Below, piece after piece: positions 47,412 through 51,517 of a stretch of DNA of 64,000 bases. Source of the DNA: Acidovorax sp. 107 (lineage in GTDB: Bacteria > Pseudomonadota > Gammaproteobacteria > Burkholderiales > Burkholderiaceae_C). The stretch spans positions 1,366,501 through 1,430,500 of the forward strand of contig NZ_QBTZ01000001.1 in NCBI RefSeq assembly GCF_003058055.1, in the 5' to 3' direction. A program made the position numbers and the translations under genes. The notes under the pieces are model-generated. The model worked only from the letters and a program-made list of their open reading frames with translations. It did not search any database and was not told the DNA's origin. Within the stretch, counting starts at the first letter, position 1; every line of letters starts with the position of its first letter.

Positions 47412-47777
47412 TCATGGCATTTCCTGCGCATCCTTGGCGCGCGTGCCGTCCACATGGTCGGTGCCGGCCATGCCGCGCGATGCCAGGAGCACCACGAGGA
47501 AGAGGGCGGTCATAGCAAAGCCGATCACGATGGCCGTGAGGGTGAGCGCCTGGGGCATGGGGTCGGCATAGTGGGCCAAGTCTTGCGGCACCCCGGGCTG
47601 CAGCACGGGCTCCTTGTCAATCGCGAGGCCCAGGCGGCCCATGCTGAAGATGAACAGGTTGACGGCATACGACAGCAGCGACAGGCCCATGATGACCTGG
47701 AAGGTACGCGGCCGCAGCAGCAGCCACACGCCGGAGCCGGTGAGCACACCGATGGCCAGGGCCAGTATCAGTTCCAT
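47412..47777 (-). CDS. mnhC: Mrp/Pha cation:proton antiporter subunit C
   Basis: A 121-aa NuoK-like three-helix protein. Family features are GVWLLLRPRTFQVIMGLSLLSYAVNLFIFSMGRL and ALTLTAIVIGFAMTALFLVV. Its start overlaps the mnhA stop by 10 nt. Residues about 55-72 (DKEPVLQPGVPQDLAHYADPMPQALT) are the loop characteristic of this subunit. Confidence 0.93.
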   Translation of the reverse strand: MELILALAIGVLTGSGVWLLLRPRTFQVIMGLSLLSYAVNLFIFSMGRLGLAIDKEPVLQPGVPQDLAHYADPMPQALTLTAIVIGFAMTALFLVVLLASRGMAGTDHVDGTRAKDAQEMP

Positions 47778-50713
47778 GGACCTTCTCCCGGTGTGGCGGC
47801 GGCCTGGGCTTCTTCGGCCGCGCGTGCGTTGTTGTAGCGGTGGCTGCGCACCGACTGGTGTGCAATGCCGGTGAGGATGAGCATGGTGGAGCCCACCACC
47901 AGGGTGAACACGCCAATGTCGAAGAACAGTGCGCTGGCCACATTGATCTCACCCACCACAGGCAGCGAAAAGTGCGCCGTGTGGCTGGTCAGGAACGGAT
48001 AGCCCCAGGCCAGCGCGCCCAGGCCGGTGGCCAAGGCCGCCAGAAGGCCCACACCGATCCAGCGCCTTGGGTACAGCGGCAGATGGGCCTCGACCCAGGA
48101 CGTGCCCGAGACGATGTACTGCAGCAGCAGCGCTACCGAGAACACCAGCCCCGCCACAAAGCCGCCGCCGGGCTCGTTGTGCCCGCGCATGAACAGGTAC
48201 ACCGCGACCAGCGTGGCAAAGGGCAGCATCAACCGCACCAGCACGGCGGGCACCATGAGGTAGCCCACGGCGGTGTCGGCCGTCTGGCTGGGGTTGGCCA
48301 GGTCGGTATCCACGTCGGGGGGCAGCGCTCGCTGTTGGGGCGGCAGGTCCATCACCTCGCGTGCGGGCCGGAAGCGCCGCAGCAGCGCGTACACCGTGAG
48401 CGCCACGATGCCCAGCACCACGATCTCGCCAAAGGTGTCAAAGCCCCGGAAGTCCACCAGCATCACGTTGACTACGTTGGTGCCGCCGCCGCCGGTGAGT
48501 GCGTGCTCCAGGAAGAAGGTCGAGGTGCTGTCCGGGAACGGACGGCTCATCATCGCGAACGACAGCAGGGCCATGCCGCCGCCTGTGCTCAGCGCCAGCG
48601 CCAGGTCGCGCCAGCGGCGCAGCTGGGTGCGGCGTTCTTCAGCCAGCGTGGGCACACGCAGGCTTTCGTCGCGCCGGGGTAGCCAGCGCAGGCCCAGCAG
48701 GATGAGGATGGTGGTCACCACCTCCACCACGATCTGCGTGAGTGCGAGGTCGGGCGCCGAGAACCACAGGAAGGTCAGACACACGCACAGCCCGGAGCCA
48801 CCGAGCAGCGTCAGGGCGGCCAGCCGGTGGTATTTGGCCTGCCATGCTGCCGCCACGGCGCACACCGCGCCCAGCAGCCACAGCAGCGCAAAGGCAGGCG
48901 ACAGCGGCAGCTGCACCCGGTCGCCAATGGGCAGGCCCCGCGCCCACAGGGGCAGGGTGCCCGCCACCAGCGCAGCGCACACCAGCCACAGCATTTGCCA
49001 CTGCAGGCGACCGGTGCCCAGCAGGCGGCGGCCGTTGCGGCCCATCAGGCTGAGCAGGGCCAACGTGGCTTCAAAGGCCCGCTGGCCGCTGATGCGGCGC
49101 ATGACCGGGGGTGCATCGATGGCGCCCTTTTCGCGTTGCCAGCGCAGCAGTGCGTAGAGCGCAATGCCCCCGCCCAAAGCGACCAGGCTCATCACAAACG
49201 GGGTGTTGAACCCATGCCAGACCGCCAGGCTGTAGGTGGGTAGCTCGCCGCCCACCACGGGCCGCGCGGCAGCGGCCAAGTAGGCCCCCACCGACCACGC
49301 GGGCAGCGTGCCCACCACGAGGCAGGCCAGCACCAGCAGTTCGACGGGAACGCGCATCCAATGTGGGGGCTCGTGGGGCGGGCGTGGCAGGTCGGTGGCG
49401 GGCGGGCCAAAGAACACATCCACCGTGAAGCGCAGCGAGTAGGCCACGCTGAACATGCCGGCCACCGTGGCGGCGATGGGCAGCAGCCATTCGAGCAACG
49501 GCGTGGTGTTCACGTACACCGTCTCGGCAAAGAACATTTCCTTGGACAGGAAGCCGTTGAGCAGCGGCACGCCCGCCATGGCCGCGCTGGCCACCATGGC
49601 CAGGGTGGCGGTGATCGGCATCATGGTGCGCAGACCCGACAGGCGCCGTATGTCGCGCGTGCCGCTTTCATGGTCCACGATGCCCACGGCCATGAACAGC
49701 GAGGCCTTAAAGGTCGCGTGGTTCATGATGTGGAACACAGCGGCCACGGCCGCCAGCGGGCTGTTCAGGCCCAGCAGCAGGGTGATGAGACCCAGGTGCG
49801 AGATGGTCGAGTACGCCAGCAGCCCCTTGAGGTCGTTCTGGAACATGGCGGCGTAGCCGCCCACCAGCAACGTGCACAGCCCCGCACCGCCCACCAGCCA
49901 GAACCACTGCTCGGTGCCTGCGAGCGCCGGCCACAGGCGCGCCAGCAGAAACACGCCGGCCTTCACCATGGTGGCCGAGTGCAGGTAGGCCGACACGGGT
50001 GTGGGCGCTGCCATGGCGTTGGGCAGCCAGAAGTGGAACGGGAACTGCGCGCTTTTGGTCAGCGCGCCCAGCAGAATCAGGACAAGCGCGGTGGTGTAGA
50101 GCGGGTGGTTCTGGATGAGCTGCCCCGCAACCAGCACATGGTCGAGGTCGTAGCTGCCGACGATGTGGCCCAGCACCAGCATGCCCGCCAGCATGGCCAG
50201 TCCGCCCGTGCCTGTCACCGTCAGCGCCATGCGCGCACCACGCCGCGCGTCCTTGCGGTGGTGCCAGTAGCCGATCAGCAGGAAGGAGAACAGGCTGGTC
50301 AGCTCCCAGAAAAACGCGATCTGGATGATGTTGCCCGACAGCACTACGCCCGCCATCGCGCCCATGAACGCCAGGAAGAACGAGAAGAAGCGCGGCACCG
50401 GGTCTGCGGGCGACATGTAGTAGCGCGCGTACAGCACCACCAAGCTGCCCACGCCCAGCACCAGCATGCAGAACATCCACGCAAAGCCATCCATCCGGAT
50501 GACGAGGTTCAGGCCCAGTGCGGGCAGCCAGGCCAGTTCTTGCCGGATCACGCCGCCGTCTGCAATCTCTGGAAAGTACAGCGCCGCCTGGGCTGTGCAG
50601 AACAAGGCGATAAGGCCCGCCAGGGTGGACTCGGTATTGCGGGCGTTGGACGGCAGAACCGCTGCCAGCAGGCTGCCGATGAAGGGGAGAAGGATGAGCG
50701 TGATCAGGGGCAT
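47768..50713 (-). CDS. mnhA: Mrp/Pha cation:proton antiporter fused subunits A and B
   Basis: A 981-aa membrane protein: residues 1 to about 780 are NuoL-like MrpA (FFSFFLAFMGAMAGVVLSGNIIQIAFFWELTSLFSFLLIGY; ALTKSAQFPFHFWLPNAMAAPTPVSAYLHSATMVKAG), and the last 150 residues carry an MrpB domain (RGHNEPGGGFVAGLVFSVALLLQYIVSG). The AB fusion marks a six-gene group 2 Mrp operon, as in rhizobial Pha systems, exchanging Na+ or K+ for H+. The ATG at 50713 has no ribosome site; a 227-bp inverted-repeat element ends 14 bp upstream. Confidence 0.94.
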   Translation of the reverse strand: MPLITLILLPFIGSLLAAVLPSNARNTESTLAGLIALFCTAQAALYFPEIADGGVIRQELAWLPALGLNLVIRMDGFAWMFCMLVLGVGSLVVLYARYYMSPADPVPRFFSFFLAFMGAMAGVVLSGNIIQIAFFWELTSLFSFLLIGYWHHRKDARRGARMALTVTGTGGLAMLAGMLVLGHIVGSYDLDHVLVAGQLIQNHPLYTTALVLILLGALTKSAQFPFHFWLPNAMAAPTPVSAYLHSATMVKAGVFLLARLWPALAGTEQWFWLVGGAGLCTLLVGGYAAMFQNDLKGLLAYSTISHLGLITLLLGLNSPLAAVAAVFHIMNHATFKASLFMAVGIVDHESGTRDIRRLSGLRTMMPITATLAMVASAAMAGVPLLNGFLSKEMFFAETVYVNTTPLLEWLLPIAATVAGMFSVAYSLRFTVDVFFGPPATDLPRPPHEPPHWMRVPVELLVLACLVVGTLPAWSVGAYLAAAARPVVGGELPTYSLAVWHGFNTPFVMSLVALGGGIALYALLRWQREKGAIDAPPVMRRISGQRAFEATLALLSLMGRNGRRLLGTGRLQWQMLWLVCAALVAGTLPLWARGLPIGDRVQLPLSPAFALLWLLGAVCAVAAAWQAKYHRLAALTLLGGSGLCVCLTFLWFSAPDLALTQIVVEVVTTILILLGLRWLPRRDESLRVPTLAEERRTQLRRWRDLALALSTGGGMALLSFAMMSRPFPDSTSTFFLEHALTGGGGTNVVNVMLVDFRGFDTFGEIVVLGIVALTVYALLRRFRPAREVMDLPPQQRALPPDVDTDLANPSQTADTAVGYLMVPAVLVRLMLPFATLVAVYLFMRGHNEPGGGFVAGLVFSVALLLQYIVSGTSWVEAHLPLYPRRWIGVGLLAALATGLGALAWGYPFLTSHTAHFSLPVVGEINVASALFFDIGVFTLVVGSTMLILTGIAHQSVRSHRYNNARAAEEAQAAATPGEGPWN

Positions 50714-51052
50714 GCGCAAACGATTCTAGGGCGTGTCCCCCTTCAATTCCCCCACGCGCTGGCGGTGCAATGCGGATGGAAGCCCGACAAAGCAGACGCC
50801 GCATTGCGCAGCCAGCCCGAAGGGAAAGCCAGCCAGGCCGCACACTGCGTCGTTGCCCTTCGCTTGTGTAGCCAAGCTACACGGCGCTCAGGGCGCCTAG
50901 CACTGCACGGCCTGGATGGCTTTCGCGTGGGGGAATTGAAGGGGGACACGCCCTGGGGCAGCCCCTAAAAACCCTGCCCGACCCACGCTGTTGGGTAGCC
51001 ATGCTGCAAAAAACAAGCCCGCTGCAGCGGGCTTGCTGCTTGTGAAGCGTGC
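50714..51052. other. 339-bp gap upstream of the Mrp operon
   Basis: Filled mostly by the 227-bp inverted-repeat element (50728-50954). The remaining 98 bp up to the comEA stop hold a hairpin-like GCCCGCTGCAGCGGGC near 51025-51042, a plausible comEA terminator. No gene supported. Confidence 0.6.
50728..50954. mobile_element. MITE-like 227-bp element with perfect 31-bp terminal inverted repeats
   Basis: Left arm 50728-50758 (begins AGGGCGTGTCCCCC) and right arm 50924-50954 are exact reverse complements over 31 bp. Inside are further inverted pairs: GCAATGCGG (50767-50775) with CCGCATTGC (50799-50807); AAAGCCAGCCAGGCCG (from 50825) with its imperfect partner at 50901-50923; and a central GTGTAGC/GCTACAC hairpin (50866-50882). 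A 68-codon open frame crosses it but no transposase is encoded. No clear target-site duplication was seen. Non-autonomous mobile element is the best reading. Confidence 0.75.
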
Positions 51053-51517
51053 TTAGTTTTTGCTAGCGCTGCTTGCTGGGGCTGGAGTAGCCGGTGCTGC
51101 CTTTGCAGTCGCAGGGGTGGCTGGTGCGACCGGTGTGACTGGCGTAGCCGGCTCCTTGTCAGCGCCGGCCTGGGTTCGGCGGTCTGCTGTCTGGGTATTG
51201 CCGTGCTTCTTGTTGTTTTTCTTGGCTTCAGCCTTGGCGGCTGCCGCCGCGCTGTACTTCTTGCCGTTGACCGTCAGGCCCTCTTTGGAGAAGTTGACGG
51301 CACTCTTGTTGCCCACGCCGCCCACACGGCCAATGAAGTCGGCCCAGTCCTTGAAGGGTGCGCTTTGGCGCTCTTGCAGGATGCGGCCCGACAGGCCGGG
51401 GCCAATGCCCTTGATGCCGTCGAGTTCGGCCTCGGTGGCGGTGTTCACGTCCACGGCGGCCCAGGCGGCGGAGGCAAGCAGCGTGGCAACAAGCAGGGTC
51501 AGCAGTTTCTTCAGCAT
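51053..51517 (-). CDS. comEA: ComEA-like helix-hairpin-helix DNA-binding protein
   Basis: A 154-aa exported protein: signal peptide to about residue 20 (cleavage AWA-AV), a helix-hairpin-helix domain at 22-80 (VDVNTATEAELDGIKGIGPGLSGRILQERQ), then a lysine/alanine-rich stretch and a Pro/Ala/Thr repeat tail (PATPVTPVAPATPAT). The HhH part matches ComEA, which binds incoming DNA in the periplasm during natural transformation; the tail is an unusual addition. AGGA precedes the ATG. Follows lapB on the same strand, 37 bp away. Confidence 0.85.
   Translation of the reverse strand: MLKKLLTLLVATLLASAAWAAVDVNTATEAELDGIKGIGPGLSGRILQERQSAPFKDWADFIGRVGGVGNKSAVNFSKEGLTVNGKKYSAAAAAKAEAKKNNKKHGNTQTADRRTQAGADKEPATPVTPVAPATPATAKAAPATPAPASSASKN

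Follow-up and report, generated by a model that had tools for sequence, protein, structure and literature searches.

The 227-bp block that precedes the Mrp antiporter operon of Acidovorax sp. 107 is very probably a non-autonomous MITE with an old two-hairpin interior, moved in trans by an IS5-family DDE transposase of the IS427 type and landed at the predicted -10 box of the operon. The observations behind this reading are copies in other genomes, empty sites, TA flanks, IS elements with similar ends, and interior hairpins that are both conserved and compensated. The block lies in a 64,000-nucleotide stretch (the window), flanked by a ComEA-like helix-hairpin-helix gene on one side and by the Mrp operon on the other; in the operon, mnhA is followed downstream by ORFs of the mnhC, D, E and F types, as judged from their Pfam domains.

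The element and its copies in Acidovorax

The two arms of the block are exact reverse complements whose pairing ends at 31 bp, and the A/T pair at the very outside is part of the target dinucleotide, leaving an element proper of 225 bp with 30-bp ends (Table 1). Folded as DNA, the block reaches -94 kcal/mol against -49.0 ± 3.5 for 200 shuffles (z = -12.8); folded as RNA on the mnhA strand it gives a z of -12.5. No transposase is encoded inside it, as the only ORFs of at least 80 aa that enter the block are overlapping frames that run in from the adjacent coding sequence. The perfect 31-bp ends, the nested hairpins (A, the tiny CCCGAAGGG hairpin and B), the missing transposase and the 14 bp that separate the end of the block from the mnhA ATG at 50713 on the minus strand had all been described in a first-pass annotation of the sequence and are confirmed here. 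Its description of the block as MITE-like is likewise borne out by the multiple copies in the genus, the TA flanks, the empty sites and the IS relatives whose ends are almost identical. The window copy and the A. delafieldii copy share a deletion of 43 bp in the left hairpin.

Table 1. Coordinates of the element and of the adjoining Mrp features in the window.
Feature	Position	Strand	Remarks
mnhA, which opens the Mrp operon and codes for a fused antiporter subunit	47771..50713	-	MnhA-, MbhD-, MbhE- and MnhB-type Pfam domains
Predicted -10 box of mnhA, TAGAAT	50723..50728	-	9 nt before the ATG; promoter function putative
Target dinucleotide TA, mnhA-proximal	50727..50728	.	First two bases of the predicted -10 box (minus strand); from comparison of empty and occupied loci
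mnhA-proximal 31-bp inverted end	50728..50758	+	Reverse complement of 50924-50954 without mismatch; its outermost A is that of the target TA
MITE proper, GGGCGTGTC...GACACGCCC	50729..50953	.	225 bp; 43 bp shorter than the same-site copies in G010 and G013
Hairpin A	50758..50816	-	Apex is the site of the 43-bp deletion; core 50760-50809 matches model R2 weakly (E 0.003)
Linker mini-hairpin CCCGAAGGG	50816..50824	.	Similar CCC-NNN-GGG linker at the same place in distant relatives (by eye)
Hairpin B	50824..50924	+	Core 50840-50908 with near-invariant internal-loop motif (CGTTG opposite CGCCT.G)
mnhA-distal 31-bp inverted end	50924..50954	-	
Target dinucleotide, distal copy	50954..50955	.	Decayed: TG on the plus strand, CA in mnhA orientation, at the four occupied loci

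Matches to the element were found in 23 of the 99 genomes searched, its own included, and 21 of the 23 belong to the genus; some matches are partial or weak, and G005, G010, G019, G031, G039 and G042 hold several copies each. A scan of titled genome contigs with a 30-bp end pattern returned 50 stretches, both within Acidovorax (A. delafieldii DSM 64, A. kalamii, A. facilis, A. soli, GW101-3H11 and others) and outside it (Xylophilus sp. ASV27, Simplicispira lacusdiani, an uncultured Comamonas and Burkholderiales MAGs). Among the loci then compared, 41 copies are complete and have distinct flanks, at least six of them duplicating an insertion already represented by another species (L007/L008, L009/L026, L122/L124 and, in four genomes, the mnhA site); 37 of the 41 measure 266-268 bp between GGG and CCC, and TA flanks 26 copies on both sides, 13 on one side and 2 on neither. 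A plasmid collection searched with the window element gave no match. The search of the terminal repeat in related genomes proposed at first pass has accordingly yielded a full-length, multicopy element found chiefly in the genus, and the identification of the block as a MITE is well supported.

Insertion sequences with similar ends

IS-sized elements with TA flanks and ends beginning GGGCGTGTCATCA, with at most two mismatches in the outer bases, occur in G010, G033 and G035. The G010 copy reads as N over most of its length; that of G035 contains, within matching ends, ORFs that match DUF4096 and DDE_Tnp_1, as in IS4/5-type elements, and is tentatively placed in the IS427 group from its two-ORF layout, its TA target and the similarity of its ends. 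ISPssp5 of Psychrobacter (IS5, IS427 group, 837 bp), as listed in Table 1 of PMC6514802, has inverted repeats GGGTGTGTCATCAATTA/GGGCGTGTCATCAATTA and a TA direct repeat; it resembles the MITE in its GGGYGTGTCATCAATTA ends and TA target duplication, and its transposase, as given in the available part of the same source, is encoded by two overlapping ORFs, as in the G035 IS. Set against the ISPssp5 entry, the copies in the genus show IS427-type ends and a 2-bp TA duplication, and in the available part of a survey of Paracoccus, 10 of 11 IS5/IS427 elements make 2-bp duplications (PMC3281130). Unlike these IS elements, the MITE has no transposase, and its resemblance to them is confined to the outer bases (about 18-27). 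Since the interior looks unrelated, the MITE did not arise from these IS copies by mere internal deletion.

Transposase matches at E<=1e-20 were found in 6 of the 47 genus genomes. The ends are of the same kind as those of the MITE in G010, G033 and G035 and related but different in G002 (GGGCGTGTTAACAATCA) and G041 (GGGTCTGTTGAGAAT); the latter two are of the same style and lie within CTAG or TA, so that the ends appear to diverge within this IS group while the CTAG/TA target stays. No IS ends were found in the transposase-matched stretch of G003. One IS copy of G033 (L206) has ends GGGCGTGTTGAGAATC, and two of G041 (L168, L174), with the GGGTCTGTTGAGAAT ends, are located between CTA and TAG.

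The window's own genome gave no transposase match at this threshold among the 6 candidates scored, and the window copy is therefore probably stranded and immobile; the exact end pattern also returned nothing there, a weak result in that the pattern misfits the variant ends of the window copy too. The MITE-rich genomes G005, G031, G039 and G042 likewise gave no match at E<=1e-20, so the copies there may rely on a transposase that escaped this search. Transposase matches together with ends of this kind, which the first pass proposed to look for, were thus found in G010, G033 and G035, but not, at the threshold used, in the genome of the window itself. In the mechanism that we propose, an IS427-type DDE transposase would recognise GGGCGTGTC-type ends and insert the element at TA, often within CTAG, with duplication of the TA.

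Occupied and empty alleles upstream of mnhA

mnhA was found in 42 of the 47 genus genomes, and its upstream region was read at 41 loci (30 + 11; G046, at a contig end, was left out). Four of these (G000, G010, G013 and G044) are occupied by the element and 37 are empty. The hexamer TA[AG]AAT stands exactly 9 nt before the mnhA ATG at 40 of the 41 loci; the empty ones comprise 29 with TAAAAT, 7 with TAGAAT and one with neither. Because a promoter scan of 50600-51200 returned no sigma-70 match, the prediction of a -10 box is drawn from this conservation. With only 9 nt between a -10 box and the start codon, the mRNA would be near-leaderless, and to judge from the aligned loci mnhA looks near-leaderless across the genus. 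None of the 41 loci has a Shine-Dalgarno sequence by a four-motif test, and the missing ribosome site is therefore a genus-wide feature of the gene and not an effect of the insertion: the first-pass annotation was right about the absence, but the element is not its cause.

The insertion point is the TA that opens the predicted -10 hexamer. TAGAAT is kept before mnhA, and the sequence upstream of the hexamer has been moved off by about 227 bp; a GGCAGGG block that lies upstream of mnhA at 15 of the 37 empty loci is pushed away in the occupied ones. The earlier proposal that the element replaced the native promoter or leader consequently holds for the displaced upstream part but not for the -10 hexamer, which was left in place. 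An effect of the element on the Mrp operon is plausible, and since the predicted -10 box of this seemingly near-leaderless gene exists both with and without the insertion, the locus offers a clean natural pair for gauging it. We envisage one insertion onto the TA of the predicted Mrp -10 box in an Acidovorax ancestor, in which the duplication of TA would have left TAGAAT before mnhA and displaced the former upstream sequence.

A single insertion is argued for by features common to all four occupied copies, namely the CCCCCTTCAATT variant of the end, an outer TA that has decayed and G as the third base of the hexamer TAGAAT. Occupancy takes at least three changes on a tree of mnhA (30 loci), which rejects a single occupied clade (AU p 1e-5); a tree built from the upstream region of 20 of these loci calls for four changes, at least two of them forced by well-supported branches, and likewise rejects a single clade. 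Among the occupied loci the element diverges by 0.9-4.4%, against 13-29% at fourfold sites of mnhA, and between G000 and G010 it differs at 2 of 227 positions where the fourfold sites differ by 28.7%; the inverted ends are still perfect in three of the four copies. The nearest flank on the mnhA-distal side tracks host lineage, as G044 differs from the empty G040 at 3/58 positions and from the occupied G010 at 13/59, and G000 from the empty G004 at 12/56 and from G010 at 19/56, while the first 60 columns on the mnhA side do not discriminate (G000 against G004, 5/60; against G010, 3/60). Two other shared sites also combine low divergence of the element (L009/L026, 2.2%; L007/L008, 7.9%) with flanks that differ mostly by 7-29% per 100 bp. 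Simple neutral vertical descent fits poorly, since the occupied genomes do not form one clade and the element diverges far less than the fourfold sites; recent spread by short-tract recombination and constraint plus losses each fit the data. The patchy allele would accordingly reflect either inheritance with losses or short-tract homologous recombination between species.

Three other accounts of the locus have to be weighed. That the MITE entered this TA separately in different species would explain the patchy distribution on the gene trees but is highly unlikely, as the joint recurrence of end variant, decayed outer TA and G is hardly to be expected, although the G alone says little because 7 of the 37 empty loci also read TAGAAT. 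To regard the block as the native leader of the operon, or as a cis-regulatory RNA conserved there, would make sense of the strong fold on the mnhA strand and of a divergence much below that of neighbouring sites, yet the site is empty at 37 of the 41 genus loci, dozens of copies lie at unrelated sites and no Rfam match in the element comes near threshold (18.9 bits against 62). We consider this reading extremely improbable, and as a general feature of the operon a conserved leader RNA is refuted by the empty sites. Across the window stretch, the best Rfam match (24.1 bits, threshold 70) lies outside the element, and ten relatives gave one match (23.1 bits, threshold 100), away from any hairpin. 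The first-pass annotation had named, as evidence against a mobile element, a single-copy block found at the same site in all relatives as part of a conserved RNA; the full block does occur only once in the window's genome, but it is far from being at the same site everywhere. It is also improbable, if less starkly so, that the MITE was co-opted to drive or regulate the operon and has been retained by selection in four species. The near-identity of the G000 and G010 elements and the well-preserved ends would follow from such a takeover, and Correia-type MITEs carry promoters, according to the available part of PMC10969869; nevertheless, the interval scanned holds no sigma-70-like promoter, close relatives manage without the element, and slow change is not special to the mnhA site, because the two other shared sites also diverge little beside their flanks. 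A single insertion of a MITE thus remains our preferred account of the locus.

A two-hairpin interior in elements with different ends

Among 39 aligned copies of the element, a structure of 102 pairs has 98.1% of its cells paired, against 30-42% with the partners slid, and 29 of the 102 pairs change on both sides, a signal to which relatedness and templated repair of palindromes can add. Partial matches led to elements with other ends and the same hairpin core. A model of hairpin B (R1), whose training rows include copies from G000, G093, G138, G164 and G271, hit 94 of 300 genomes and 53 of 135 genera of the order (E<=1e-4, scoring up to 16 candidates in each genome) and 44 of 398 genomes of the phylum, which for Acidovorax is Pseudomonadota (E<=1e-5, 12 candidates scored); these 44 comprise 8 from the order, 8 from other orders of the class and 28 from other classes, 23 of the 28 in family f80. 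Hairpin B of the window copy, itself part of the R1 training set, scores 92.3 bits with R1 and 71 bits with a rebuilt model, R2.

Over 63 sources, mostly picked because R1 hit them, R1 gave 84 hits. Of their cells 96.9% pair (22-54% when slid) and 13 of 16 pairs change on both sides, in an alignment (A3) that was fitted to the model and for which 21 of 500 shuffles reached 13 pairs; one U-G pair is unchanged in 84/84, and G-U variants outnumber A-C variants (53 against 31 cells). Among the 20 sources with at least two hits, 16 have one hairpin per strand, always minus then plus and 99-119 nt apart from start to start; the remaining four are L264 and L024, with both hairpins on one strand, and two tandem arrays. 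By eye, hairpin A is inverted within its own stem between close relatives (L264 against L270, L024 against L237/L213), as if flipped by recombination or hairpin extrusion. With R2, 18 of 24 sources (the window copy entering twice, as the window and as L001) show a further hairpin on the other strand, and 45 of the 47 genus genomes are hit. A script detected ends in 51 of the 63 sources, of which 32 measure 262-270 bp and 30 are flanked by TA on one side or both, counts that are approximate in that the script favoured TA and misplaced some ends (e.g. L250). Many end types begin loosely GRGCCTGTT-like, which suggests related transposases. To judge from these comparisons, a two-hairpin interior common to elements with different ends is a real pattern.

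The genome of the window contains at least two end types beyond that of the window copy. R1 found five more copies there at E<=0.01, with ends GARCCTGTTCAA (L274-L278), and R2, with 8 matches in all, showed a third end type, TCCACTGAATCCGGG..., in L326; by eye these six elements have two hairpins. Plasmid searches with three elements gave 8 records for L285, 4 of them matching in the element (Azotobacter 2, Halomonas 1, Pseudomonas 1) and 4 in a neighbouring gene, one Comamonas record for L274 and none for L282.

Single-hairpin elements were also observed. All 108 candidates scored in G002 match R2, and eight aligned copies (L314-L319, L327, L328) are near-identical, about 160 bp long, with ends GTGTCGCGTCACC and CTA/TAG flanks, which is likely a recent burst. 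The IS of G002 was considered as partner of this burst and rejected, its GGGCGTGTTAACAATCA ends being different; for elements with GAGCCTATTTCAG ends (G093, G138, G164, G271), the matches listed pair 266-322 bp apart and include no IS-sized pair. In G027, ten copies have the same R2 score, and L020 and L324 are solo-hairpin elements seemingly located, by eye, at the TA of TAA stop codons. Other single hairpins lie about 20 nt or less after an apparent groEL stop or between apparent groES and groEL (L268, L272), and L252 has tandem hairpins after an ORF, the genes being named by eye.

It could be argued that the true unit lies in the interior hairpins, as a family of REP-like palindromes or a gene for a structured RNA, with the transposon ends as just one of several vehicles. 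The core common to elements with different ends, the singles after apparent stop codons (L268, L272), the tandem singles (L252, L253), the invariant U-G pair and the excess of G-U over A-C variants are all in keeping with this; however, by the counts of ends, lengths and TA flanks given above, most sources look like whole MITEs, templated repair can keep palindrome arms alike without selection, and alignment A3 was fitted to the model. We therefore judge it rather unlikely. Integron attC, CsrA-type and similar hairpin readings were considered and dropped.

In the MITE reading that we prefer, the interior of the window element would be one version of an old module, built as end, hairpin A, linker, inverted hairpin B and end, that occurs phylum-wide with different ends. 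The hairpins might, as a guess, be bound as extruded DNA or as RNA by a host or transposition factor. A broader proposal, which we advance tentatively and while leaning slightly against it, is a phylum-wide superfamily of two-hairpin MITEs whose conserved interior is carried by many IS5-like ends, in which the hairpins, with their near-invariant loop motif, would be a working part to which some widely conserved factor binds in extruded DNA or in RNA, and the ends would be swapped to suit the transposase at hand.

As a rule, a MITE family is defined from its ends and regarded as a passive remnant of an IS element. Here, the same interior and loop motif in distant genera, with different ends and often at equal length, suggests that the interior does something. 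No description of the hairpin or of an Acidovorax MITE was found in the open-access literature searched, which is not proof of novelty. The REP/BIME palindromes associated with RAYT are extragenic hairpins, and the hairpins described here are similarly extragenic and sometimes tandem or located just after a gene; unlike REP/BIME, however, the present elements are mostly whole, with two inverted hairpins and long inverted ends. The Correia, ERIC and QMITE families are each defined by their own ends and host groups, whereas here the interior hairpins are common to many genera and it is the ends that change. Polaromonas JS666 belongs to the same bacterial family as the organism of the window. MITEs have been reported from this strain, as cited in PMC10969869, and may belong to the class described here. 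Like Correia, ERIC, QMITEs and other bacterial MITEs, as described in PMC10969869, the present elements are short, ORF-free, bounded by inverted ends, mostly intergenic and strongly folded.
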